Assembly (NCBI RefSeq): GCF_030644225.1
Contig: NZ_CP128650.1
Coordinates: 2,222,001 to 2,286,000, forward strand
DNA length: 64,000 nucleotides
Direction: 5' to 3'
Source of the DNA: Selenomonas dianae
Lineage (GTDB): Bacteria; Bacillota; Negativicutes; Selenomonadales; Selenomonadaceae
Shown in pieces: positions 36,656 to 52,911 of the stretch. Positions within the stretch are counted from its first letter, which is position 1. Each line of letters starts with the position of its first letter. The translations under genes were made by a program, and so were the position numbers. Below the pieces are notes generated by a model. That model saw only the letters and a program-made list of their open reading frames with translations. It was not told the origin of the DNA and ran no database searches.

Positions 36656-38293
36656 TCACCGTGATTTTTCCTCGCGCTGCTCTTCCCTCTCCCGCACAGA
36701 ATCCTTTGCAATATTCCTCGCCCCGCCTTTCTCCATCTCCTTGCGGTGCGGAGATTCGGCGTGCAATGTCTTTTCGATGGCATAGACACCGAATCCGGCT
36801 TTCGCCATGCGGCTTGCAACACGCCGTTCTGTTTCCACCGTGCCCTGCACCTTGCCGTCCTCTGTTTCCTGTTTCATGGCATCACGATAAAACTCCGTCG
36901 CCGATTGAACCTCATGTGATTTCTTGATAATTTCGTCACGCCGTTGCGTTAGGGCGGTGATGCCTTTGTCGAATACGCCCGCAACGCTGTGAAGCACACC
37001 GTCAATCGCCTTGTGCGCCTTTTGCTTCAAATAGCTTTTGACCTTGGTCGGCGCAAGTTTCACGGAGTAGTAGGCTTCTTTTACAGATTCCCGCGATGCA
37101 GCAAACATCTCGGATGCAACAATGCGCGGCTGATTCTTTGCCTCTTTGCGCATTGCATCGATAACAGCGAGAAACTCCGTTGATACGGCGATACAGCGGG
37201 CAAGCTCCTCGGACGACTGCGCTTTCAATTCGCGCTCACGCTCCAGCTCCTCAATCCGCTGGCGAAGCCCTTCGATCTGCTCCTGATACTCCTTCTCCCG
37301 CTGAAGAATGAGTTCGCATCGCTCCTGCATGTAGGCAGCTCCCTCGCGCATGGATTCATGCGCATCGTGAAGTGCCCTGCTGCATTCCGCATCGGACTTG
37401 CCTTCGCTCCTTGCATCACCTGCCGCCTCAATCTGCCGGACAATGTTCTCGTGGTGCGTAGCGTAGCCGTCCCATGTCTCCTGATCTGCGCCGCAGGTCT
37501 GCTCTGCCTCCTCCACATTCTTCATGCTTGTATGAAGATCGTCGGCGATGCCGCGCAGCTCTTTTATGGCATTGTCGTCCAGAGCCTCCTCAGCCATCGT
37601 CAGGCTGTCGGAAATCTCCTGATGATAGTCACTAGAATATCTATCTTTTTCCGCTGTCATCAATAGCTCCTCCTCTTTTTCCTGTTTGAACTTGACAAGA
37701 TCACTTTCTGTCTTTATACTGGAAGTAACAAGGTTGCCCTTTCTAGCTGCCATGGGGAATTGGACCCCGGCGGGAGCTAGAAAGTTGGTAGCCTTTTTTG
37801 TGTGTGCATAAACCAAGTTGCCGTCAATAATATTACGAACATACCAGCGGTAATTGATGTGTCCACCATCTCCTTTGCCATAAACAGATGTCATCATGTT
37901 TACGCGCCCTTCATTGCGATCAACATTCAGCTCAAATGGAATGATGATGTTTACGCCACTAGCATCCTTCACATCTAAAACTGCCACTAGACGATCAGGA
38001 GACGTACTAGATTTCATAATCATCATTGGATCGGCAAGAGCTCTAGGTATCTGCCGATATACCTCTGTTGTGATTTCAGGGTGATCGTTTTTTATAGCTT
38101 TTAATTTAGAAACATCAACGTAAATCGGCAAATCATCCATTCCGACAAACTGTAATGCCAACGGAGTCTGAGCTACCCGTATTGGCAAACTGCCTGAAGT
38201 CCGGTCTCCTGAAAACCACTCCTGTATTTCCTTGGTAAAATGATCTTCATCTTTGGTAATTTGAGCATCTTCAAGCTCCTTGATGTATCGCAC
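36656..38293 (-). CDS. MuF-C-domain protein with coiled coil
   Basis: 545 residues with a GTG start (GGAG about nine bases upstream). Residues about 45-185 (LPIYVDVSKLKAIKNDHPEI, YRQIPRALADPMMIMKSS, NMMTSVYGKGDGGHINYRWY, LVYAHTKKATNFL) look like the C-terminal domain of phage MuF proteins. That domain is found in phage head proteins, large polyvalent proteins and toxin-like proteins. The rest is coiled coil. Its role on the ICE is unknown; it may enter the recipient. It converges with the relaxase, two bases apart. Confidence 0.65.
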   Translation of the reverse strand: MRYIKELEDAQITKDEDHFTKEIQEWFSGDRTSGSLPIRVAQTPLALQFVGMDDLPIYVDVSKLKAIKNDHPEITTEVYRQIPRALADPMMIMKSSTSPDRLVAVLDVKDASGVNIIIPFELNVDRNEGRVNMMTSVYGKGDGGHINYRWYVRNIIDGNLVYAHTKKATNFLAPAGVQFPMAARKGNLVTSSIKTESDLVKFKQEKEEELLMTAEKDRYSSDYHQEISDSLTMAEEALDDNAIKELRGIADDLHTSMKNVEEAEQTCGADQETWDGYATHHENIVRQIEAAGDARSEGKSDAECSRALHDAHESMREGAAYMQERCELILQREKEYQEQIEGLRQRIEELERERELKAQSSEELARCIAVSTEFLAVIDAMRKEAKNQPRIVASEMFAASRESVKEAYYSVKLAPTKVKSYLKQKAHKAIDGVLHSVAGVFDKGITALTQRRDEIIKKSHEVQSATEFYRDAMKQETEDGKVQGTVETERRVASRMAKAGFGVYAIEKTLHAESPHRKEMEKGGARNIAKDSVREREEQREEKSR

Positions 38294-38320: not shown

Positions 38321-41086
38321 CTATCTGATATACTGTACAACGAGAGCAGGTTCTCTCACTTCCAGTTCATTCACCGACAAGAGCCGTTTGATTGACGGCT
38401 CTTTTTCTGCATTACGGACAATTTCTTTCCCGTAGGATCGATCCTGAGAAATGGCAGCGTAAGGGCTGTTGCGTTGGATTGTGTCAGCGATATTGCTGCG
38501 CAGACGGTCGAGCTCAAGATAGGCATCTGCATCATCAGCGAGCGAGGCTTTTATTTCTTCGACAGCAAACTCCATATCTGCCTTTTGCCATCCCCGCTCA
38601 TCCATCGGCGTATAGCTGGAAATACCGCTTTGATATGCACGCTCACGAAATCCTTGCGCATAATCCCTGTCGCCATAGATACGCTCGTTTTCTTGTGGAA
38701 CATCCGTCATCGCAAAGACACCGGGATGCGTGCGCATCGTTTCTTCTGTCTGCGCAGCACGATAAAACATCTCCCGAATTTTATCGCAGTACAGCCGATA
38801 GGTGTCTTCGCCAACACTTTCCTGTGCTGCTGTGCGAAGCTGCTGCACGCGCTCATCCGCAAGCGGCGTAAGGACAAAATCCCCCTTATGCACGTTCAGT
38901 TCCTGCTCGACAAATCCGACATCTGCCACGCGGAAGATGCGCCCATCTGTTTCGATGAGATCACCTTCCTCAAGAAAGCGTCCTTCCTGCGGCGGGCGCA
39001 CAGCATAATGTGCAAGAATCTGATCGAGACCATGCTCGCGCATCATGTCAGTACGGACATAGTTCTCTTGCGCGGTGATTTCGTAGTCACGATTCAGGTA
39101 CGGCAGCGATGCTGTTGGCGAGACACCTTCTTTATGCTGATAGATGGTAACGTGCATAGACTTGTTGGCGAAGTAGTTGTAGTCCGGGGTCATCTCGTAG
39201 GCGGCAGCCACGCTTGCAGGGAGCTGCTTTTCATAATATGCTGCTCCATAACGCGCAGACTTGTCATCCGAATCGACGAGATAGAGATTCTCCTTTGGGA
39301 TTGCCCCTGCATCAGCCGGACGCTCCGTCAAAAGGTATTTGTAAAACCGTGCCGTCCCACGTGCCAGTGCTTCCGGTGGAAGCGTCAATGTACGCAAATC
39401 GGTAACAGGGATAGGCATGGTATCACCGATCGAAGGGGTATCGGTCGTCACCGCTTTTTCCTCCGGTGCTTTGTCTTCTGCACTATCTATGATAACGTCC
39501 TCATTCGCCACAGTCAGATCTTCCATACGGAAACGCTCAGGCATGAATCCCTTGATATAGTCTGCAATCTTCCGTGCTTCTGCGGAGGCGCGGAAAATCT
39601 CCATCTTATCCTCTTTGAGATCCTGCACCCAGCTCTGGACATACGCTGCGTGATTGGTCGGATTCATGGGCAGCCCGAAATCAAGTGCAAGATACGCAGA
39701 AGCAAGCTCTGCGCGCAGTTCTTCCTTTGCGTATTCAGGTGAGCCATGCTCGCCTGTCAGATTCCGATCGAGACGATTCTTGTGGCTCGTCCAATGCGCA
39801 AGCTCGTGCAGCGCAGTCGCATAGTATTCGCCGAGACTGGGAAACGCCTCCTTCGGTGGCAAATGAATATCATCCGTTGACGGTGAATAACATGGATGAG
39901 GTTTCGCCGCAGGAACATCATGCTTGATGACAGCGCCGCTTGCCTTTAGGATGCCCTCTGCAATCTCATATTGTTCCTCATGTGTATATCCCCGCTCTTT
40001 CGGAACGTATGGCTTGAGCGGATGCTCTTTATAGGTGCACTTACCATCTGCGTCAAGGATCGGATTCCCGTCTGCGTCCCGCAGGTATTCACGACGCACA
40101 CAATCAGATGCGTGAAAGACGTTGCAGAACCGCTTCGCCCAGTATTGCTCATCCTCTGGCAGCGGATTCCCGTTCTTATCGTGCGTCTGCTTCCATGACA
40201 TCTGAATGAGCACGGACTTTGCACCTTTTCTGACACCATATTGCCATTCGAGTTCAGGATTGACGGGATCACCCTGCTCCTTTAGTGCGGCGACGCGCTC
40301 CCGAAAGATACGATTCTGAGCGTTCAGCATTCCCATCGTAAAGAACCGAGGATCGTTGCTTTCCTTTTCTGCCATGATGAACGAGAGGTATACGCTGTTG
40401 ATACGGGAGTACCGATGCCGGCTCTTTCCGTTGATCGGACAGACAAGTGCTGCACCGACGTTGTTGTCCCAGCCCTGTTGCCAAGGGAGTTTTCCGCTCT
40501 CCATCAGTGCAATGATTTTCTGCGTAGTCTGCTCGTACAGATCGGGTTTGGAGGCTTTGTTTTTTCGTCCTACATTTGCCATTTTCTGTTTCTCCTCCTT
40601 TATTAGCATTTGCTGCCTGATTTTCATTAGAATTACACCTAGTTTATTTTCTCCTTTTCCTTTGGAAACGCCCCAAAAGTGATCATTCCATGTATTTCCT
40701 TCCACTAGTTTGACATCTCTGGTTTTTAGCAAAACCGTCTTTAGATCAGCGTTTTGTGTAAATTTAGCAAGAATCAGTTCCTCCATGATATTTACTCTGA
40801 CACTTTCCCAATCAGGACGCAACCTTACTGTGCGTCCCTTTCTTTTTGCCTCCTTTCCTGTCAGTCGAGAAAACTCCTTTGCTCTTGTTGGATCCTTTTG
40901 AGCTTGGAATGCTGCCTCTACATTGTTATATGTGTTCCCTTTATAAGAAATAGTGCACGGAAACATATTCGAGAGAAAGGCATACTCGTCACGAAAAGAA
41001 AATATACCGGAATCATCCATTGTCTCAATTATGGGATTCTTTTCTTCGGATGGCTGTTCCATGACTTCTTTAAGCCTCCTTCTCAT
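38321..41086 (-). CDS. NADAR-ArdC antirestriction fusion with zincin and LPD-type C-terminus
   Basis: 921 residues. Residues 28-165 form a NADAR (YbiA/DUF1768) domain: YAFLSNMFPCTISYKG, NVEAAFQAQK, WNDHFWGVSKGKGENKLG. ArdC-N (LYEQTTQKIIALMESGKLPWQQGW) follows, then a metallopeptidase with HELAHWTSH (about residue 428) and the third ligand in KEELRAELASAYL. The C-terminal third resembles large polyvalent protein domains. ArdC proteins block restriction of incoming DNA, and NADAR domains act on ADP-ribosylated substrates. The start overlaps the upstream gene by four bases; an ATG at 41062 after AGGAGG is an alternative. Confidence 0.85.
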   Translation of the reverse strand: MRRRLKEVMEQPSEEKNPIIETMDDSGIFSFRDEYAFLSNMFPCTISYKGNTYNNVEAAFQAQKDPTRAKEFSRLTGKEAKRKGRTVRLRPDWESVRVNIMEELILAKFTQNADLKTVLLKTRDVKLVEGNTWNDHFWGVSKGKGENKLGVILMKIRQQMLIKEEKQKMANVGRKNKASKPDLYEQTTQKIIALMESGKLPWQQGWDNNVGAALVCPINGKSRHRYSRINSVYLSFIMAEKESNDPRFFTMGMLNAQNRIFRERVAALKEQGDPVNPELEWQYGVRKGAKSVLIQMSWKQTHDKNGNPLPEDEQYWAKRFCNVFHASDCVRREYLRDADGNPILDADGKCTYKEHPLKPYVPKERGYTHEEQYEIAEGILKASGAVIKHDVPAAKPHPCYSPSTDDIHLPPKEAFPSLGEYYATALHELAHWTSHKNRLDRNLTGEHGSPEYAKEELRAELASAYLALDFGLPMNPTNHAAYVQSWVQDLKEDKMEIFRASAEARKIADYIKGFMPERFRMEDLTVANEDVIIDSAEDKAPEEKAVTTDTPSIGDTMPIPVTDLRTLTLPPEALARGTARFYKYLLTERPADAGAIPKENLYLVDSDDKSARYGAAYYEKQLPASVAAAYEMTPDYNYFANKSMHVTIYQHKEGVSPTASLPYLNRDYEITAQENYVRTDMMREHGLDQILAHYAVRPPQEGRFLEEGDLIETDGRIFRVADVGFVEQELNVHKGDFVLTPLADERVQQLRTAAQESVGEDTYRLYCDKIREMFYRAAQTEETMRTHPGVFAMTDVPQENERIYGDRDYAQGFRERAYQSGISSYTPMDERGWQKADMEFAVEEIKASLADDADAYLELDRLRSNIADTIQRNSPYAAISQDRSYGKEIVRNAEKEPSIKRLLSVNELEVREPALVVQYIR

Positions 41087-44000
41087 CTCGCGTGCACAGT
41101 GTGTGTCTGACCTTCCTCGCGGTCGATCGGTTGAGTTCGCCGAGCACCGCGTGCGGCGATTGATTCCTCGCTGCTCACTTCCATCTGTTTTGTAATCTCA
41201 ATCAGCCGCGCCTTTTTCTCTGCCTCCTCTGCGGCATGTGGGAACGGTTTCTTGATCTCCTCCTCTGCATCTTTGACATCCGCAGCAATACGCGCACGCT
41301 CCTCCTGCACTTGACAGAGTTCCTTTACAATCCCGTCATAGAGGGAAGAAATGCGGCGCACCGTGACTTCCGGCTTATCCGAAAAACCGATGCGATGACT
41401 GCGTTTCCCCGTCAAAATGATATACGGCTGCATCGCTATCGGATCGATGCGTATTTGAAGTTTTAATCCCCGATACTCTCCGCTGAAGTCTTTTGTCGCC
41501 GAGAAGCCCCCCTTTGCCGCCTTATGCAGAATATCGGCTGCCTTGCTGCGATCGGTGACGAGCTTTCCGCAGAGCGTCATCTGAAAGAGTTCTTCTCCTT
41601 GTTCATTCTGCAAGCAAGCACTATCCATACGGAGCTTGTCGTCCATCAACCCCGCAATTTTCGCATCCTGCTCCTTGATGCGTGCCGGACCATCAATCAC
41701 TGTAAATTTTTGCAATTTTTGCCGCGTCGATTCATAGTCAATCTTTGCAATCTGGATGCGACCAAGACGGTTTTCCAACTCCATTTTCTCACGTAGGAAC
41801 GGATTCCCTGTCGCAACGGCTTTGAGTTCGGCATACGAGAGAACGGTCTCGTCCATATCTTGCAACGTACGCAGTGGGCTTCGGCTCGTCATGACCTGAG
41901 CGATCTGCTTCTGCTTGTTCTCGACCGTCTGCCATAGGTAGGCATCGAATGTCCCCTCTGTTACATAGCGGAAAATCTTCACCTTGTCATAGCGATTGCC
42001 GGGGCGAACAATCCGCCCCATACGTTGCTCAAGATCAGCGGGTCGCCACGGAACAGAAAGATCATGCAGTGCGGCAAGTCTGTCCTGCACGTTCGTCCCA
42101 ACGCCGAGCGTTCCTGTGGAGCCGATGAGGACACGAACCTCGCCGCTGCGCACTTTATCAAAGAGTTTTTGCTTATCCTTGTCTGAAACTTCCTGCACAA
42201 CAGCAATTTCTTCACGCGGAATCCCGCTCTGAATGAGCTTTTCGCGAATGTCATCGTAGACGTTAAAGCCACCTTTTCCTGCGCCCGTAGATGTGGATTC
42301 ATCGCAGAAAAGGATCTGCGTACCACGCTCTGAACTCGTCGCACGGTATGTTTCGAGCAGATTTTTCACACATCGGTTTACCTTGCTGTCCGGCGCATCT
42401 GCTGCCTCCGGAACGACAAGGCGCGGATCAAGGGACAATGCCCTACCGGCATGTGTAATGAGCAGCATGCTGTCCTTCGTCATCGTCCCATCAACTCGAA
42501 GAACATCCTGCGGTGTCTTTCTGCGAATATCATCAGCGCGTGTCACAAGATCACTGATGATCTCTTTTTGTTCCTCTGAGGCGGGGGCTTTATCGACGAT
42601 AATATCGGCGGTTGGGACGATGACATCTTTACCGAGCATATCGGCTGTCCGCACGTCGGCGAACGACTTAAAGCTCGTCATGAGTTCCGGTAGATTACGG
42701 AAATTCGAAAACCGCTCTTTGAGCTGATAGCCGCGTCCTTCCGGCTTCAGCTCCATACTGACGGTAATATCCGTAAAAGCCGCAGCCCATGCGTCAAAGC
42801 TCTCAAGCCCCAATTCTTTCAGGCGATCCGGAGCAAGATACCGCTGCATGGTATAAATTTCGGTCATAGCATTGGAAATCGGCGTTCCGGTCGCAAAGAT
42901 TAGTCCTCTGCCCTGCGTGATCTCGTTGATGTACTGTGTCTTCATGTAGAGATCCCATGTCTTCTGCACATGGTCGGTCGTACCGACACCGGCAACGCGG
43001 GCATGACGGGTCATAACCTCAAGATTTTTGAACTCGTGCGCCTCATCGATAACGAGTTTGTCCACGCCAAGCTCCTCAAAGGTAATCACGTCATCCATCC
43101 CTTTGCGGTTGGACTGTTCGAGTTTTTTCAGACGGTTCTTTTGATTGGTGATGAGCTTTGTGATGTTGCGGACAGAGAAATCTTTGGCATGTGCCCCATT
43201 TGCCCGCAGCGAGAAGAGTTTATCCTCGAGTTCGTCAATGGCACGCTGCCGCATTGCCGTTTCACGCTCTGCGGACAGCTTAATCTTCTCGAAGGAAGAT
43301 GCGCCGATGATGACCGCATCCCAGTTCTGCGTAGCGATGCGGGAGATAAACTCCTGCCGGTTCTTCTTCTCGAAGTCCTTCTTCTGTGCGACCAGAATCT
43401 TCGCCCGAGGGTAAAGTCGCTGAAACTCCTCGCCGGTCTGTGCGGTGAGGTGATTCGGAACGACCATGAGTGCCTTGTGTGAAAGCCCCATGCGTTTAGA
43501 TTCCATAATGGAGGCGATCATCTCAAATGTCTTCCCAGCACCGACGCAGTGAGCAAAAAGCGTATTGCCGCCGAAAAGGCTGTGTGCAATCGCATCTTTC
43601 TGATGCGGCTTGAGGGAAATCGTATTTGTCATGCCGGGGAAGGTGAGTTTCGAGCCGTCAAACTCGCGCAACCGCACGCTGTTGAAACGGCGATTGTAGT
43701 ATTCCTGAATCTCCTTGACGCGGGTAGGGTCGGACAACAGCCACGAACGGAACTTATCGCGCAGCTCCTGCTGTTTCATCTGCGCCTGTGTCGTAAGTTC
43801 CGGATCGACGACCGTTTGATCGGAACCTTCTGCGATCGGAACTCTCACCTGCGCGTTGCGCTGGTTGAGACATTGTTCGATGAGGTCGTATGCGGTCTTC
43901 CCACCCGCAGAATACTGCGTTTCTGCCGAGAGTTCATAGGATAGACGTTCCGTTTTCGTGACCTTCCACGAACTCGTTTCCTCTACATAGTCAACATGCA

Positions 44001-47000
44001 CTTCCCGCAATCCGATAGACTGGATGAACTGCTCAACATATGCGGGCTTGAGCCACGATGTCCCAAGCCCTACACTGATCTCACCGATCTCAACATCTTG
44101 CGGAAGTACCGTCATGAGCGCATCCCGATTTTTCTGCGCACGCTCCAGCCTCATATCCCACAGCTCCGTTTGTTCGTCATGGTGTGCTGCCATGCGTATA
44201 TTATGCTCCGAGGCTGCTTGCTCATACAGTTCCACTAACTCCGTGTGCTGCGGCTTCTCGCCTTTGGATTCACACGAAACAAGATACTGCTGTGCAGTAT
44301 CTATCATGTGGAGCATCGAAAGCCTCCGCACAGGATCATGCAAATCCTCCATGAACGTGCGCCTATTTGCGCCGGAAGACTGTTCCGGATGCTGCGCCTG
44401 ATATAAGTCAAAAGCATGTATCAGATCACCAAATCGCCAGTTACTTCGCTGCGAGAAAAAATTCGAATCACGGCGCAGAAGTTGAAAGCCGAGGGCACAG
44501 TCGGTTGCCAAAGAGTCTGGAATCCAATCGGAATACCGACCATAATTTCCATCCGCTTTATGCATGGCATAAAGCATATAGCGCGAAACACTCGTACGCC
44601 ACTCCGGATATTTCGTTTGGTCGATGCTCTCCACATAAGCGCGAAAATCAGAGTGCAATCGGGAACGCCCCAACTGCGAAAACTGCTGCAACAGATCCCT
44701 CAGACCTTCTTCCATTTCGTTCTGCGGCTCCGGCAGTGTTTTGGGAAAGCCCTCCACAAGCTCAGCGTGCTGTTCGGGGTAATACGTCTGTGCAAGATAA
44801 CTGTCGCGTTCCCCGCGAATCTGTGCCGTCAGTTCGTCAATGTCATCTATTTTGGTGCGAATATTGCCGGACAGATACTCATCTGCCTGTATGTAGGTTT
44901 TCGTACGGTCGTCAAAATACAGATGTGTAAATTCAAGCTCATCCGGAATCTCGCGTACAGGGATTCCGCAGAGTTCACTCATATACGCAAGATCGACTTC
45001 GCCTTTTTGTTGGATTGAGATCACGAGTGCATCTTCCGGCGTATCTGCGTGCTCCGGGCGTGCTTCCGGCAGGATTGTCCGCTCCGTAAAAATATCCGCT
45101 TTGGCGACAAAGTTCCCCTTGGCATCCTTAATCTCATACGCGCGTATGAAGTTGTACCCCGGATCGGCATAGAACACATTCGCAAGTGTCCGATCTCCCG
45201 CAATATGCCCGTAGCTCTTGACATGGCTCTCATAGAGATCATTCAGTGCCTTCTGCGCTTGTCGCAGCTCCTCATTTGATCCGTCACGCTGCTGCACCTC
45301 AAGGACGTTGTGCCCTGCGTCACGCAGATGGACTGCCGAAATCACCCGCGCTCTCGTTTTTTCATCCAGCTCCGGCGTGGATTCCGCGCCCTGCGTATCA
45401 ATGAACACCAACTCGCCCGCAGTAATGTAAAATCCCATTGCACGTGCATCCGGTACTTTTGCCTGTACGGGCAGCGGAAGTGCCGTCTCACTGGGAAGAT
45501 ATACACTGTTTTGGGGGATTTCCTTAAACACATCGACAATCTTCTCTTTGAGATTGTCCGTGCCCGAAACAACGGAAAGCTCTGTCCCGTAACGCCCGTT
45601 CCGCTCTTCCCATGTACCGAGCACATGATCCTGATAATGCTGAGAAAAATATTCGTTGACGGCATGACGTGTCTCAAGAGGAGTTCCCTTGAGACGCTCG
45701 ACTTGCCGCGAAGATTTCCACCAATAAGCATCATTCACAACGCGCGTATGCGTTTCGATGGGGGTACGTTCGCCCCCTTTTTTCCGAAAAATGAGGATGT
45801 CCGACGTAACGAATGCGCCAGCTCCTTCAAAAGTTGTGCTGGGAAGACGCATTGCTGTGACAAGATCAGCACGTTCGGCGAGTTCCGCTCTCGTGCGCTC
45901 ACTCAGCTTGTCCATCGTGCCGCTGGATGTAATGGCAGCAACAAGCCCGCCAGAACGGACTTCATCGATCATCTTCATGAGGAAGTAGTCATGCGGCAGA
46001 AGAGCCGCACCGCCGTATTTGGGATCACCCGTAATCGGTGTATCTCCGAACGGTACGTTCCCAACGGCAAGATCAAAGCTGCCATCCGCGAAGCGCGTTG
46101 TTTCAAAGCCCTGTGATGCCACGTTCACATCCGGATGCGCAGCGGCAACGATGCGAGCAGAAAGAGAATCCAGCTCTACCCCGCAAATATTGCTCTCTGA
46201 CCGTATGTCATCTGGCATCGCAGAGAAGAATCTTCCCGCGCCGCATGACGGTTCAAGAATATTCCCGTGTGTAAAACCAATGTGCCGCAGCCCCTCGTAG
46301 ATGGCTTCGGCAATCTCAGGCGGGGTATAATAGGCATCCAGAATACTGCTGCGTGCCGAACGATATTCTTCGTTCGTCAGATATTTTTGCAGCACATCAT
46401 ATTCGTTTGCCCAAGCCTTATTGGCAGGGTCAAACGCCTCAGAAAGCCCTCCAAACCCGCTGTAGGATTGGAGAAGACGCTGTTCCTCGGGGCTTGCTGC
46501 ACGTCCCTCACGCTCCATGTTTTTGAGCGCCAAAATAGCGGCAAGATTACGCTGAAAGACTGCCCTCTTGCCGCTCGTCGTACTCATATCTGCTTCGTAG
46601 TCAATACTCGAAAGATCAATAGCGGGAGAATCGTTCCCCTCGTCTAGTTGGATAGGTCTGCCGTCAAGGTCTCTGTGATCTGTGCTTCGATCATCCGGCT
46701 GCGCCGAATCTCCTCCAGTCCCTTGAGATCCTGTCCCAGAATCTGCCGCTCCTCCTCCTGTTGGTACATCGTCCGATAGCGCGTCTCCGTCTCCTGCTGT
46801 ATCTGCTGCAGATGCTGCGCCGCTTCTCCCGTCTGCAACATCCGCAGCCACTCCTCCGGTCGATACGATTGGAGATACGTCCTCCGAATCTGCGCCCACC
46901 GTCCCGCTGTGAACGGTTTCTCGTCCGCCTGCGCCGCTTCCTCCATCTGTTCCTGCCGAATCGCCCGCTGCACTCCCGCGTCGATCGTCACCTGATTCAG

Positions 47001-47853
47001 CTGTTCGAGCTGCGCTTCTGCCTCCGGAGACAGCCCCTCCACCTGATACAGGTACATCATCTCCCCGTACTGCTCCATCAGGTTGAAGATCTCCGCGTTC
47101 TCCTGCTCGATCTTCTCGCGCAGATGCTGCTCCATCCGCAGATGCTCCGTCAGAAGCATCATCTCTCTCTCCGAAAATGCCCTCATATTCGCTTACCGTC
47201 CTTTCTTCATCCCGCTGTTCACGCGCACGGATTTCCTTTGCGAGCGGGTCAAGAACCGTCATTGCAGCTCTTTGAATATCTCCTAAAAGATGCTTTGCAT
47301 CTACATTCTCATACGGTGCAAGGATGAGTGACAGTCCTATATGCTCCTCGGCATCCATCCCCAGACGCTCAAGAACCAGATACGTTGCCCCCAAAATCTC
47401 AAGTTCTCCAAAGCCTTGTTCTTTCAAACGAGACATTCCATCAACAACAATATCTTCTACAGGTTTCTCTGTTTCCCCTCCGAAAACCTTTCGCAACGCA
47501 TCCGTGTCTTTCTCTGCGTCAAATGTCCAAACGAGACGCCGAAACTGCGGGCTTTCTGCATTCTGCGTCTCGCTCAGATCATAGACGTAGGAAACACTTC
47601 TGCCGTCCTCATTCAGCACAGGAACGCCCTCTGCCCCCTCCTGTAGTTGTGCACCAAGACGCTGCCATAGTGCCTCATCCGCGTATGCACGTCCCGCAGC
47701 GGGCGCGTGGAAAAAGAGTGCAATCTGCCGTTCAATCGGCTGCCTGTAATGTGCAGCCATTGAACCAAGAAAGTCACGAAAGCGGTTTTTGTTGTGGCGC
47801 AGCTCGTTTAAGAATCGTTCCTTCTCATCGATGAGTGTATGTACCGTTACCAT
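41083..47853 (-). CDS. DarB-like DNA methylase/SNF2 helicase, 2256 residues
   Basis: The largest gene. After an N-terminal domain (to about residue 230) and a low-complexity linker (about 231-403) comes an N6-adenine methylase fold: motif I NILEPSCGAGRFF (about 533) and motif IV NVPFGDTP. The SNF2-type helicase has CVGAGKTFEM (Walker A, about 1438), VIDEAHEFKN (about 1601) and RMGRIVRPGNRYDKV (motif VI). DarB of phage P1 protects incoming DNA from type I restriction, and the antirestriction context here agrees. The start 47853 follows AGGAGG; an ATG 18 bases upstream would place that site inside the gene. It leads an operon with the NADAR-ArdC gene. Confidence 0.85.
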   Translation of the reverse strand: MVTVHTLIDEKERFLNELRHNKNRFRDFLGSMAAHYRQPIERQIALFFHAPAAGRAYADEALWQRLGAQLQEGAEGVPVLNEDGRSVSYVYDLSETQNAESPQFRRLVWTFDAEKDTDALRKVFGGETEKPVEDIVVDGMSRLKEQGFGELEILGATYLVLERLGMDAEEHIGLSLILAPYENVDAKHLLGDIQRAAMTVLDPLAKEIRAREQRDEERTVSEYEGIFGERDDASDGASADGAASAREDRAGERGDLQPDGAVRGDDVPVSGGGAVSGGRSAARTAESGDDRRGSAAGDSAGTDGGSGAGGRETVHSGTVGADSEDVSPIVSTGGVAADVADGRSGAASAADTAGDGDALSDDVPTGGGAADSGTGSQGTGGDSAQPDDRSTDHRDLDGRPIQLDEGNDSPAIDLSSIDYEADMSTTSGKRAVFQRNLAAILALKNMEREGRAASPEEQRLLQSYSGFGGLSEAFDPANKAWANEYDVLQKYLTNEEYRSARSSILDAYYTPPEIAEAIYEGLRHIGFTHGNILEPSCGAGRFFSAMPDDIRSESNICGVELDSLSARIVAAAHPDVNVASQGFETTRFADGSFDLAVGNVPFGDTPITGDPKYGGAALLPHDYFLMKMIDEVRSGGLVAAITSSGTMDKLSERTRAELAERADLVTAMRLPSTTFEGAGAFVTSDILIFRKKGGERTPIETHTRVVNDAYWWKSSRQVERLKGTPLETRHAVNEYFSQHYQDHVLGTWEERNGRYGTELSVVSGTDNLKEKIVDVFKEIPQNSVYLPSETALPLPVQAKVPDARAMGFYITAGELVFIDTQGAESTPELDEKTRARVISAVHLRDAGHNVLEVQQRDGSNEELRQAQKALNDLYESHVKSYGHIAGDRTLANVFYADPGYNFIRAYEIKDAKGNFVAKADIFTERTILPEARPEHADTPEDALVISIQQKGEVDLAYMSELCGIPVREIPDELEFTHLYFDDRTKTYIQADEYLSGNIRTKIDDIDELTAQIRGERDSYLAQTYYPEQHAELVEGFPKTLPEPQNEMEEGLRDLLQQFSQLGRSRLHSDFRAYVESIDQTKYPEWRTSVSRYMLYAMHKADGNYGRYSDWIPDSLATDCALGFQLLRRDSNFFSQRSNWRFGDLIHAFDLYQAQHPEQSSGANRRTFMEDLHDPVRRLSMLHMIDTAQQYLVSCESKGEKPQHTELVELYEQAASEHNIRMAAHHDEQTELWDMRLERAQKNRDALMTVLPQDVEIGEISVGLGTSWLKPAYVEQFIQSIGLREVHVDYVEETSSWKVTKTERLSYELSAETQYSAGGKTAYDLIEQCLNQRNAQVRVPIAEGSDQTVVDPELTTQAQMKQQELRDKFRSWLLSDPTRVKEIQEYYNRRFNSVRLREFDGSKLTFPGMTNTISLKPHQKDAIAHSLFGGNTLFAHCVGAGKTFEMIASIMESKRMGLSHKALMVVPNHLTAQTGEEFQRLYPRAKILVAQKKDFEKKNRQEFISRIATQNWDAVIIGASSFEKIKLSAERETAMRQRAIDELEDKLFSLRANGAHAKDFSVRNITKLITNQKNRLKKLEQSNRKGMDDVITFEELGVDKLVIDEAHEFKNLEVMTRHARVAGVGTTDHVQKTWDLYMKTQYINEITQGRGLIFATGTPISNAMTEIYTMQRYLAPDRLKELGLESFDAWAAAFTDITVSMELKPEGRGYQLKERFSNFRNLPELMTSFKSFADVRTADMLGKDVIVPTADIIVDKAPASEEQKEIISDLVTRADDIRRKTPQDVLRVDGTMTKDSMLLITHAGRALSLDPRLVVPEAADAPDSKVNRCVKNLLETYRATSSERGTQILFCDESTSTGAGKGGFNVYDDIREKLIQSGIPREEIAVVQEVSDKDKQKLFDKVRSGEVRVLIGSTGTLGVGTNVQDRLAALHDLSVPWRPADLEQRMGRIVRPGNRYDKVKIFRYVTEGTFDAYLWQTVENKQKQIAQVMTSRSPLRTLQDMDETVLSYAELKAVATGNPFLREKMELENRLGRIQIAKIDYESTRQKLQKFTVIDGPARIKEQDAKIAGLMDDKLRMDSACLQNEQGEELFQMTLCGKLVTDRSKAADILHKAAKGGFSATKDFSGEYRGLKLQIRIDPIAMQPYIILTGKRSHRIGFSDKPEVTVRRISSLYDGIVKELCQVQEERARIAADVKDAEEEIKKPFPHAAEEAEKKARLIEITKQMEVSSEESIAARGARRTQPIDREEGQTHTVHAR
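46644..47159 (-). CDS. TnpV-like protein encoded inside the DarB-like gene in another frame
   Basis: A 171-residue frame nested within the 41083-47853 gene, on the same strand but in a different frame. It reads as a normal soluble protein: MLLTEHLRMEQHLREKIEQ, EIFNLMEQYGEMMYLYQVEG, then GRWAQIRRTYLQSYRPEEWL and LQTGEAAQHLQQIQQETETR. The last parts resemble TnpV of Tn4451-like elements (GKWGRMRKRYLKEHRP pattern, from memory). GGAG lies seven bases before the ATG at 47159; an ATG at 47186 is in frame. The host frame here is only Asp/Gly/Ser/Ala/Arg-rich linker. It may be a real overlapping gene or a relic of one. Confidence 0.5.
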   Translation of the reverse strand: MLLTEHLRMEQHLREKIEQENAEIFNLMEQYGEMMYLYQVEGLSPEAEAQLEQLNQVTIDAGVQRAIRQEQMEEAAQADEKPFTAGRWAQIRRTYLQSYRPEEWLRMLQTGEAAQHLQQIQQETETRYRTMYQQEEERQILGQDLKGLEEIRRSRMIEAQITETLTADLSN

Positions 47854-47883
47854 CTGCGTGCCTCCTGTCATACATTTGTCTCT

Positions 47884-48849: not shown

Positions 48850-49671
48850 CTACCGCGCTCCTCTGCCGCGCTCCTCCTTGGGAAAGAAGTGTTCGTATGC
48901 GTGCAGTGTTTCCTCTACCCGAGCGCGACTGACGTATGGTGCACAGTCGCGTACAATACGTTCGCGCTCATGATGTGTAAGATCACGCGAGAACTCTTCG
49001 CGAAAGAGTTCGGAAGGATCGCGAAATGGCGTTTTCTCCCGATCATAGAGGCATTCGCCAGCCCGATTGTAGACGCGAACCTGCGGGAACGCATCCTGCT
49101 CATAGAGCGTATGCAAATGATCGACGATGGAACGTGCCACGAGGTCATGATGCTCCTTCGGTGTCATGCGAGGCGTAAGCCCTATCTCCTTCATCTGCTG
49201 ATACCGCTTCAGCGTTCCAAGATATGACACCTCCGGACGCACGAGGATTAGATTGAGTGATACGTCATATCCCCTGCTCCGCAGTAAATCTCGTGTCCGC
49301 AGCGGCACTTCCGTTGTCCGCAGCGTCCCCTCAATGATAAGATGATAGCCAGATGCGCTCAGATCATCAATGAGTGCTTCGGTCATCTTGCCCGCAAATT
49401 TCTGTGTATGAAGCACGGCATCATCCCCGTATGCTGCCTGTAATTCTCCGTAGCGAGGATGATACTTTCGGTAGTCGTCACTCGAAACAAAGACGATGTT
49501 GCCGCTATGCTGCCGGGTGAATATATCTGCAAGTTTTGTCTTGCCCGCCCCCGGCTGCCCGGCAAGAAGATATGCCTGTGGATTTTTTGATGGTGTGACC
49601 GCGCCTAATAAATCGGCTTTGATTTTTTCTTTTTGTTCATCAAGCTCCTTTGCGCTGTAGTTCTCCGGCAT
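48850..49671 (-). CDS. Zeta-toxin family kinase
   Basis: About 273 residues from MPENYSAKELDEQ. The P-loop AGQPGAGKTKLADIF (about residue 37), IVFVSSDDYRKYHPRY (substrate-binding aspartates) and YHLIIEGTLRTTEVPLRT match zeta/PezT toxins. These phosphorylate UDP-N-acetylglucosamine and block cell-wall synthesis. It overlaps the upstream small gene by 32 bases, the layout of a toxin-antitoxin pair that stabilises the ICE. Some zeta-like ICE proteins are not toxic. Confidence 0.8.
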   Translation of the reverse strand: MPENYSAKELDEQKEKIKADLLGAVTPSKNPQAYLLAGQPGAGKTKLADIFTRQHSGNIVFVSSDDYRKYHPRYGELQAAYGDDAVLHTQKFAGKMTEALIDDLSASGYHLIIEGTLRTTEVPLRTRDLLRSRGYDVSLNLILVRPEVSYLGTLKRYQQMKEIGLTPRMTPKEHHDLVARSIVDHLHTLYEQDAFPQVRVYNRAGECLYDREKTPFRDPSELFREEFSRDLTHHERERIVRDCAPYVSRARVEETLHAYEHFFPKEERGRGAR

Positions 49672-49933
49672 CTTCTGTCTCCAACTCTCGAACGTAAGCG
49701 CGAGCACGCACAAACTCCTGCTTCAGTTCCGCTATATCTTCGGGCGTGTTGTAGCGGTCGCCAAGAATCCTGTGCAAGATTGTGCGGAGTTCGCTTTGGA
49801 AGCCGGACACCGGATGCACGGCATCCTGCGGATCAAGTCCCATGCGATCCTTGATACGGCTCACATCTGCCAAAAGCTCTGCAAAACCTTCATGCAGGAT
49901 CTCCTTTGCTTCAATGACTTCATACGGAATCAT
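49640..49933 (-). CDS. Small protein upstream of zeta toxin, probable antitoxin
   Basis: 97 residues: MIPYEVIEAKEILHEGFAELLADVSRIKDRMG and then an acidic helical tail. It does not match the epsilon antitoxin clearly, but its position and overlap with the zeta gene suggest the cognate antitoxin. The ATG 49931-49933 follows a GGGGG site. A longer open frame upstream has no credible start. Confidence 0.6.
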   Translation of the reverse strand: MIPYEVIEAKEILHEGFAELLADVSRIKDRMGLDPQDAVHPVSGFQSELRTILHRILGDRYNTPEDIAELKQEFVRARAYVRELETEDAGELQRKGA

Positions 49934-50912: not shown

Positions 50913-52829
50913 TCACCGGAATATGCCTTGCTGATCGGAGAGCTTAAATCCAGAGCTGCCGAACTGCGTATTGACAAGTTTGCTGATACGATCAGCAAAA
51001 TACATATACATAAGGACGACAAGAATGAGCTGCAAGAGCAGTATGTTGTTTGCAACAGCTTGTTTCACAACACCGCCGCTTCCTCCTAGGATCCCCATCA
51101 AGGTAGCTGTATAGGATTCGAGCGAAGAGCCAAAATAACCGCCGTGCTTGAGTGCCGCCGCAAATTCCTGTACGGTCTTTGCATTATAGATCCCATCAGG
51201 AGCGTAAGCGTCATAGTTCGATGCCGCAAATTGAGCATACTCCTCATCGCTGTCAAAGTGACGGTAATAATCCCCCTCCGGCGATATGCCCGCTATTTTC
51301 GCCCCGTTATACGCCTTGATCCCCCCATAATTGTGATCCTCAACGGCGAGTGCGCTCGAAAAGTGCCCGGATTCGAGTGCAAGCTGCGCCCAAATCCATT
51401 CAGGAGAAATACTTTTTCCATACCGCTCCTGCATGATCTGTGAGATACGGTAAGCCAGTTCAGCTTTTGGACGACCGGAGATAGAGACACTTGACGCACC
51501 GGGTGCTCCTCCGGCAGACTGCGCCTGTACGGTCTGTGACATGAGTTCGCCGACGACGATGTGCTCCATCGTCGATTGGAGCATCGCAGCAAAGAGGCAG
51601 AAGAACATGAGATTGATCGATGCCGCAAATACACTGTTGATGCCATTCGAGGCAAGATGACGCATATGCTTTAGCCCCGCCAGCGGGAATACCGTAAAGC
51701 TGAACAGCACCGTCATATAGAACTCGACGTAGGCGAGCGCGATATAATAGCCGATGAGGCAGAACAGCAAAAATAGGATGACGGCAAGGATCAGCATGAG
51801 GAGGACAGCACCTGCACCCGCACCACCGAGCAACAGTGCTAAAACATCCGATGCACTGCCGGAATGAAGCACGCCATTAAATACCGGAGCAATGATGTTC
51901 ATGCCCTTTTGTACGATTTTTGTCGGATCGGAGACTGCTGCCTCTGCGGCTTCCGGATTTCCACCGGCAAGCCCGCCAAGAGCAGGAAAACCATGAAGCG
52001 AAAGGTTGCCGACAAAATCCCCCCAGTTGTAGAGGAGAGCAAGACAGAACCCATAGAACAGCCCCCGTCGAACGAGCCACTTAAATAGTCCCTCGCGGTC
52101 TTCGCTCGTCGGCATCATCGCCTTGTTCATTGCACCAAGCACAAGATCGATTGCCACAAGGACAAAGAATATCTTCGTCACATAGTTTTGCAACGTCTCC
52201 AGCCCTGTCGTAATAAGCTCGACGACCTTGTTCACGAGATCACTGATGGGCTTTGCAAAATCCTCCGTGACCGCCCAATCCTTTGTGTGCCCGTGGAAAT
52301 CTACACCACCAAGCCCAAATCCGCCGCCCTCTGCCTTCTCCAGTTCGAGCAGTCCCGGAACGTAGAGACCGGGATCGGTTGGCTCCCCATAGACACCATT
52401 CGGAAGCACCTCGAAATGACAATGCGGTCCCGTCGAATTGCCCGTACTCCCCGCTTTTGCGATGAGCATTCCCTGCGTTACATACTCCCCCACGCCGACC
52501 AGAAGTTCCTGATTATGCCCGTAAAGAGTATAGAGTGCCCCTCCATGATCGATCATGATGGTGTTTCCATAGCCCTGCATCCAGCCCGAATAACTCACCG
52601 TGCCCGATGCGGCAGCATAGATTGGATCTCCATAATCGACAGCAAGATCAACACCCGCATGGTAGGATGGCTGTCCTGTAATCGGATGAATACGATGCCC
52701 CTGCGGACTGGTTACGACCATCGGCTGACCGACCGGAGAGACCATTGTCATCGCCGCTGCGGTCTGCGCCGGAGCAAAAGAAACGAGGAGGGCGAACAAA
52801 GCGGCAAATACGGTCAAAACGTGGCGCAT
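50913..52829 (-). CDS. M23 peptidase - TrbL/VirB6 channel - glucosaminidase fusion
   Basis: About 638 residues. After a signal peptide, an M23 endopeptidase (SYHAGVDLAV with His/Asp ligands, and GPHCHFEV) is followed by several membrane segments of TrbL/VirB6 type (about residues 215-425). A GH73 glucosaminidase comes next (WAQLALESGHFSSALAVED, catalytic Glu; NYGGIKAYNGAK), and a final membrane helix ends the protein. Both wall-cutting domains should face outward, so the channel carries its own peptidoglycan hydrolases. All catalytic residues I can check are present. The start 52829 follows AGGAGG. Confidence 0.85.
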   Translation of the reverse strand: MRHVLTVFAALFALLVSFAPAQTAAAMTMVSPVGQPMVVTSPQGHRIHPITGQPSYHAGVDLAVDYGDPIYAAASGTVSYSGWMQGYGNTIMIDHGGALYTLYGHNQELLVGVGEYVTQGMLIAKAGSTGNSTGPHCHFEVLPNGVYGEPTDPGLYVPGLLELEKAEGGGFGLGGVDFHGHTKDWAVTEDFAKPISDLVNKVVELITTGLETLQNYVTKIFFVLVAIDLVLGAMNKAMMPTSEDREGLFKWLVRRGLFYGFCLALLYNWGDFVGNLSLHGFPALGGLAGGNPEAAEAAVSDPTKIVQKGMNIIAPVFNGVLHSGSASDVLALLLGGAGAGAVLLMLILAVILFLLFCLIGYYIALAYVEFYMTVLFSFTVFPLAGLKHMRHLASNGINSVFAASINLMFFCLFAAMLQSTMEHIVVGELMSQTVQAQSAGGAPGASSVSISGRPKAELAYRISQIMQERYGKSISPEWIWAQLALESGHFSSALAVEDHNYGGIKAYNGAKIAGISPEGDYYRHFDSDEEYAQFAASNYDAYAPDGIYNAKTVQEFAAALKHGGYFGSSLESYTATLMGILGGSGGVVKQAVANNILLLQLILVVLMYMYFADRISKLVNTQFGSSGFKLSDQQGIFR

Positions 52830-52911
52830 ACATCGACCTCCTCTCAAAAATAGGACTTGTCAAGGTGTTAGAACTGTGCTACGGTAAGAAAAAACGGAAG
52901 GAATGATGATA

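Follow-up and report, generated by a model that had tools for sequence, protein, structure and literature searches.

Whether the DNA behind a flexible linker of one large protein can also encode a second, ordered protein is the question raised by a DarB-like gene in the window studied here, a stretch of 64,000 nucleotides within a 2.39-Mb genome assembled as a single contig. A sequence-only reading of this stretch had proposed that a TnpV-like gene overlaps the DarB-like frame. Our analysis indicates that this is very probably a dual-coding locus: inside the linker region of a DarB-like gene of a conjugative-type element, shifted by one frame, lies a gene of the TnpV family.

The nested frame and its host

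The host gene (41083–47871, minus strand) encodes a DarB-like protein of 2262 aa that combines a methyltransferase and an SNF2-type helicase in one chain. It was identified by its match to PHROG 10089 ('DarB-like antirestriction', 1314 bits) and by Pfam matches to SNF2, Helicase_C and ResIII, of which SNF2 and Helicase_C were above the cut-off; the methyltransferase gave Pfam matches below the cut-off only, as well as PADLOC methyltransferase matches. Judging from residue composition, host residues 229–410 (46642–47187, minus strand) form a linker of low complexity, in which G, D, S, A and R account for 73% of residues compared with 35% in the remainder of the protein. This agrees with the earlier description of a low-complexity host frame over ∼170 codons, and the overlap indeed ends where it had been said to, between two conserved parts of the host: the N-terminal domain on one side and the methyltransferase region on the other.

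The same DNA holds a genuine ORF on the same strand as the host, in the +1 frame relative to it and wholly inside the host gene. It runs from an ATG to a TAG stop (46644–47186, minus strand), encodes 180 aa, and is assigned to TnpV by its PF14198 match, by selection and by homologues in the same slot. The gene had originally been placed at 46644–47159; the stop end of that interval stands, and its 171-aa product begins at an inner ATG (47159) of the fuller ORF, which has another ATG at 47162. A ribosome-binding site had also been claimed, and Shine–Dalgarno (SD)-like sequences occur upstream of two start codons: AAGGA (47199–47203, minus strand) 12 nt ahead of the ATG at 47186, and GGAG (47169–47172, minus strand; read off the sequence) 6 nt ahead of the ATG at 47162.

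Searched against the TnpV profile, the translated ORF matched Pfam PF14198 with 34 bits (cut-off 27; E = 3.2e-8), which bears out the TnpV label. The match range defines the TnpV domain as residues 91–178 (46653–46916, minus strand) and spans profile positions 20–110 of 111, that is, most of the domain model. An NCBIfam search of the same protein gave no TnpV match. Its AlphaFold model, computed from ten aligned rows, was all-helical (mean pLDDT 85, pTM 0.50), its N-terminal part made up of two long helices and its TnpV part of four, in line with the ordered helical protein that had been expected. Comparison of this model with the PDB and BFVD yielded no match at E ≤0.001, a search of the PDB with a sequence profile of the protein yielded a single match with E = 0.44, and no close relatives of the protein were found in viral contigs, plasmids or phages.

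The downstream neighbour of the host gene, in the same element, is a DarA-like gene (38321–41086, minus strand) with NADAR, ArdC N-terminal, MPTase-PolyVal and DarA_C domain matches. Further genes around the locus encode type IV secretion components (two TrbL/VirB6-matching proteins, a VirB4-type ATPase and a type II/IV secretion ATPase), a MobA/MobL relaxase and a topoisomerase. The element is taken to be of conjugative type. Four details of the neighbourhood were recorded in passing. The NADAR domain of the DarA-like protein stands ahead of the ArdC-N, metallopeptidase and DarA_C domains within one chain, and a protein with a phage MuF C-terminal domain (36656–38293, minus strand) is encoded next to it. 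A Zeta-toxin family protein (48850–49713, minus strand; PF06414, E = 2e-48) lies between DarB and the secretion genes, and a single protein at 50913–52847 (minus strand) carries M23 peptidase, TrbL/VirB6 and glucosaminidase matches in an odd fusion.

DarB and other polyvalent proteins of phages and conjugative elements have been described (Iyer et al. 2017, PMC5512222). The window resembles such systems in having a DarA-like gene next door to the DarB-like one. DarB of phage P1, which protects incoming DNA against type I restriction according to its GenBank record, shares with the window host both methyltransferase and helicase, with local similarity over both parts. It differs in starting almost at the methyltransferase region (the match begins at residue 49–89), without the N-terminal domain or the linker. 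In P1 darB, no nested ORF of at least 60 codons was found ahead of the methyltransferase, and +1 ORFs of up to 177 codons lie deeper inside the gene.

Recurrence of the arrangement

At E ≤1, the nested protein found matches in 16 of 100 related genomes, the nearest one outside the window being 80% identical (genome G005). Eleven named loci with the host domain came from Selenomonas (8), Mitsuokella, Schwartzia and an unclassified member of the Selenomonadales (1 each). With the start of the methyltransferase as the marker, we located 37 places in 32 of 189 family genomes. TnpV was nested in +1, with both frames open, in 12 of them, and in eight, all from genus g12, tnpV was a separate gene directly upstream. 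Ten places encoded giant DarB-like proteins, nine with a nested +1 ORF and one cut by a contig end, and two had a nested +1 ORF other than TnpV (the first copy in G005, L071, and L022 in G223). Four were cut or broken (G123, G188, G218, G015). The last was a fragment (G219, L098): its host ORF is short, the overlap with TnpV covers part of it, and three stops interrupt the host phase. Stop codons in the inner frame alongside a retained linker, which had been named as evidence against a nested gene, did not occur among close homologues. In the 80% identical relative, the second G005 copy (L072), the DarB-like frame stops inside the methyltransferase region and the TnpV frame is intact.

The g12 loci supply a natural comparison. 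Wherever such a locus was not truncated at the end of a contig (8/8), tnpV immediately preceded the DarB-like gene, and the linker of these more distant hosts differs in composition, with 5–16 stops in its +1 frame (8/8). Five of these loci (L079, L080, L083, L085, L096) show the order of a topoisomerase-like large ORF (read by eye), a separate tnpV and the DarB-like gene. A split N-terminal domain was considered for g12 and dropped; tnpV there sits upstream of the entire DarB-like gene.

At a larger scale, a PF14198 search of 398 sampled Bacillota genomes returned 51 places in 27 genomes. At least 23 of these lay inside a large DarB-like ORF, in the +1 frame each time, with surroundings fetched for part of the places. 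Searching in the opposite direction, from the host domain (E ≤1e-30), we found 25 DarB-like places in 18 of the 398 genomes, and 23 of them carry TnpV nested in +1. This count includes G475, where the TnpV part and the host part are on different contigs and the TnpV-bearing frame is open to the contig end. TnpV shares one ORF with the host domain or methyltransferase region in 22 of the 25 places (in three via extra DNA), and 22 of the 23 nested copies exceed the Pfam cut-off of 27 bits, the exception being G253 (25.5 bits). A nested +1 ORF in G541 had a TnpV score below the cut-off (21.9 bits) and an hhalign probability of 81 against clostridial TnpV; in G369 (L187) the domains are present and a comparable nested ORF is absent. 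Further nested copies were present in an IMG/VR contig (L032), in a fecal scaffold labelled phage (L139) and in four plasmid-labelled records (L137, L138, L140 and L195, the last from Cohnella, Bacilli), and a search in the class of G311 (four genomes) added little. Because nested rows were among those used to build our own TnpV HMMs, their matches to these models are in part built in; the Pfam results carry no such dependence. The nested TnpV-in-DarB arrangement spans the phylum Bacillota and is not a local feature.

All 38 nested pairs that we assembled were in the +1 phase, as was a 39th from the Bacilli plasmid L195. Phase was no criterion in picking the 38 pairs, but the presence of a large open frame across TnpV on the same strand was, and we therefore place more weight on the survey count of 23/25 and on closed controls. 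In these controls, the host phase over the TnpV domain was closed in 20 of 21 stand-alone copies and in 8/8 upstream copies of g12, compared with an open host phase in 38 of 39 rows labelled nested (exception, L098). The remaining alternative frame was open in none of 68 TnpV rows. One stand-alone TnpV (L154, G295) has an open host-phase frame at a site where a DarB-like ORF was not found, and is perhaps a remnant. An ATG with an SD core at a distance of 5–12 nt was present in 34/38 nested ORFs (four lacked one by this criterion), and counted per ATG such cores preceded 41 of 140 inner start codons versus 34 of 1082 control same-phase ATGs in host-only flanks.

Constraint in the linker slot

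The sequence-only reading had suggested that one frame is constrained and the other free, and that synonymous and non-synonymous changes be compared in both. With our own code for an OLGenie-like count, we scored each single-base difference for its consequence in either frame, over seven pairs of relatives and 941 codons. The seven were pooled from 12 compared pairs; four of the others reuse a pooled locus and the fifth (L144/L149) is far diverged. Within the overlap, the TnpV frame had an NN/SN (pN/pS) ratio of 0.28 (bootstrap 0.23–0.35; 0.25–0.33 per pair) and the host frame an NN/NS (pN/pS) ratio of 0.70 (0.56–0.88; 0.55–1.93 per pair), compared with 0.19 (N-terminal domain) and 0.24 for the host frame in host-only flanks. 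The fictional +1 frame in these flanks gave 0.79 and 0.71, so that purifying selection on the inner frame exceeds what the outer frame would lead one to expect. In all 12 pairs, the most variable position was host codon position 3 in the flanks and TnpV codon position 3 in the overlap. The expected pattern was thus recovered, with a purified TnpV frame and a loose host linker.

For copies of TnpV that are not nested (stand-alone and g12), the ratios were 0.31 and 0.25, the two sets having loci in common; nested TnpV is therefore constrained as strongly as free TnpV. The phantom host phase read through these same copies gave 1.22 and 1.17, meaning that selection on the DarB frame in the overlap is weak, yet stronger than on a phantom frame. 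Both the SD signal and selection are observed, and we predict that translation of the inner gene would most likely start at an internal ribosome-binding site of its own on the shared mRNA, and that the outer frame would supply a flexible linker whose main duty is to stay open.

TnpV is not the only occupant of this linker slot. The giant DarB-like proteins of the Selenomonadaceae are perhaps of phage type or prophage-derived, judged from their size and make-up. In nine of the ten (L088, L090–L095, L099, L100), a conserved nested +1 ORF of ∼90–115 aa lies ahead of the methyltransferase, within 20 codons of it in seven and 171 (L088) and 307 (L091) codons before it in the others. These ORFs are also selected in their own frame (0.47, 0.38–0.60, with 1.33 for the host frame in four pairs; 0.42 and 1.62 in a second set of three pairs). 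The two members scanned had no Pfam TnpV match. Aligned to TnpV with hhalign, the giant ORF reached a probability of 57 in local mode and of 7.6 in a first run with other settings; its score of 29.8 compares with 18.1 for the best of 100 column-shuffled controls, which is suggestive of a distant relative of TnpV and nothing firmer.

In L071 and L022, a similar linker contains an open nested +1 ORF of ∼156–185 aa, with 31% mutual identity and a GGAGG-type sequence ahead of each ATG. A TnpV identity was rejected for these ORFs (hhalign probability below 1), and the protein was found in no other of the 189 family genomes. The selection value of 0.98 comes from this one highly diverged pair, and synonymous permutation left the nested frame open in 4.6% (L071) and 22% (L022) of cases. 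Taken together, these occupants might reflect a standing dual-coding slot before the methyltransferase for a small +1 partner gene that acts with DarB, in which TnpV is the usual partner, the giants carry its distant relative and L071/L022 an unrelated third protein, the linker itself deriving from an old gene read out of frame. We regard this wider proposal as speculative and lean against it.

Role, origin and competing readings

What TnpV would do inside a DarB-like gene can be approached from its relatives. The window copy belongs to the same Pfam family as the Tn4451-type TnpV proteins, which are also found on mobile elements and are under selection of similar strength. Those are stand-alone genes whose host-phase frame is closed in 20 of 21, whereas the window copy lies inside another gene and has a long helical N-terminal extension. 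Because TnpV is inside or beside the DarB-like gene in most lineages seen, the role that we favour, tentatively, is that of an accessory partner of the DarB-like protein while the element enters or becomes established. A serious competing possibility is that TnpV is an excisionase-like factor of the element whose position has nothing to do with DarB function and reflects compaction or an old tnpV-bearing insertion. Homology to lambda Xis has been postulated for Tn4451 TnpV (excerpt of PMC3158075), and the stand-alone copy L115 adjoins an ORF read by eye as a serine recombinase. In Streptococcus suis, moreover, most resistance-carrying IMEs insert into snf2 or ppi loci and TnpV-bearing cargo has been described (excerpt of PMC9815147), which suggests one possible route by which tnpV could enter such a gene. 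A placement unrelated to DarB fits less well with the nesting of TnpV in 23/25 DarB-like places and its adjacency in g12, and the fold search gave no significant match to any known factor.

As for its origin, distances between TnpV sequences correlate with those of the N-terminal domain (r = 0.88) and the methyltransferase (r = 0.83) across 32 loci, which favours long co-inheritance. On the TnpV tree, which is unrooted and based on few columns, nested rows clustered in more than one clade; the nested label changed six times in all, at least three times on starred branches, and a single origin is therefore not established. Either there would have been several moves into or out of the nested state, or the TnpV tree may be wrong in places. 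Since TnpV has stand-alone relatives and the linker is weakly constrained, TnpV is probably the older frame and the linker of the long protein the newer, overprinted reading. We envisage a tnpV gene located, originally or after insertion, between the stretches coding for the N-terminal domain and the methyltransferase; out-of-frame read-through of tnpV would have fused the flanking frames, and the TnpV and DarB-like genes would afterwards have mostly moved together. The reverse course, classical overprinting in which the DarB linker gave rise de novo to TnpV, which later escaped as a stand-alone transposon gene, would suit the very wide spread of the nested state, and the label changes on the unrooted tree carry no direction that would speak against it. 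We nevertheless find it unlikely, given that the linker is poorly constrained where TnpV is strongly so, and that hosts with tnpV upstream have another kind of linker, its +1 frame interrupted by stops in every case.

The linker reading itself could also be questioned. Only TnpV and a shorter helicase gene might be real, with a spurious linker and an N-terminal domain that is a separate gene. Existing annotation leans this way. In two of three annotated nested records, from Selenomonas sp. oral taxon 920 (L137, 7249–14491) and Monoglobus (L138, 5162–12350), RefSeq lists TnpV and starts the SNF2-related gene after it, in an ORF that is open from before; in the third, from Cohnella (L195, 4111–10330), TnpV is listed and the host gene is unlisted in a gene table known to be incomplete. 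The weak constraint on the host frame in the overlap would also be compatible with such a truncated host. Several results make it quite improbable. The host phase is closed over stand-alone and upstream TnpV and open when nested, and 22/25 surveyed hosts hold TnpV and the methyltransferase region in one ORF. In addition, the N-terminal domain is strongly selected in the host frame (0.19), and the host ratio of 0.70 in the overlap is lower than the 1.22/1.17 of non-nested TnpV. With the linker read as part of the host, the gene starts chosen in those two records miss part of the host protein.

The openness of the inner frame is a separate matter. Synonymous permutation of the host codons within the overlap kept it open in 1.15% of 2000 trials, and redrawing codons from the rest of the host gene kept it open in 24%, so that openness by itself is weak evidence. 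What supports the predicted nested gene is instead its homology, the constancy of its phase, the outcome of the selection test and the SD signal. A chance ORF in a GC-rich linker of low complexity, for which the 24% of open redraws could be cited, is contradicted by each of these four lines and can practically be set aside.

In the open-licence literature searched, which included sources available in part, we found no description of TnpV nested in a DarB-like gene. Coding overlaps have been described as rare outside viruses (excerpt of PMC5696523), and long overlaps as disallowed or excluded by annotation programs (excerpts of PMC8665328 and PMC7103648). The bacterial cases set out in the available parts of PMC9927249 and PMC7103648 are antisense and come from one species, E. 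coli O157:H7. Like them, the locus described here has one gene embedded in another; unlike them, it is on the same strand, involves a known protein family, recurs across the phylum and carries a selection signal. A known gene family nested in one phase throughout a phylum, where the labour is measurably divided between frames, offers a test bed for how overlapping genes start and last; it also connects an orphan 'transposon protein' with a system of anti-restriction type. Three further records (L194, L196, L197) contain stand-alone TnpV without an overlapping large ORF. In L197 (3965–6622), an Enterococcus plasmid, tnpV lies upstream of a predicted tet(O), and a similar neighbourhood has been reported in Roseburia (excerpt of PMC11913394).
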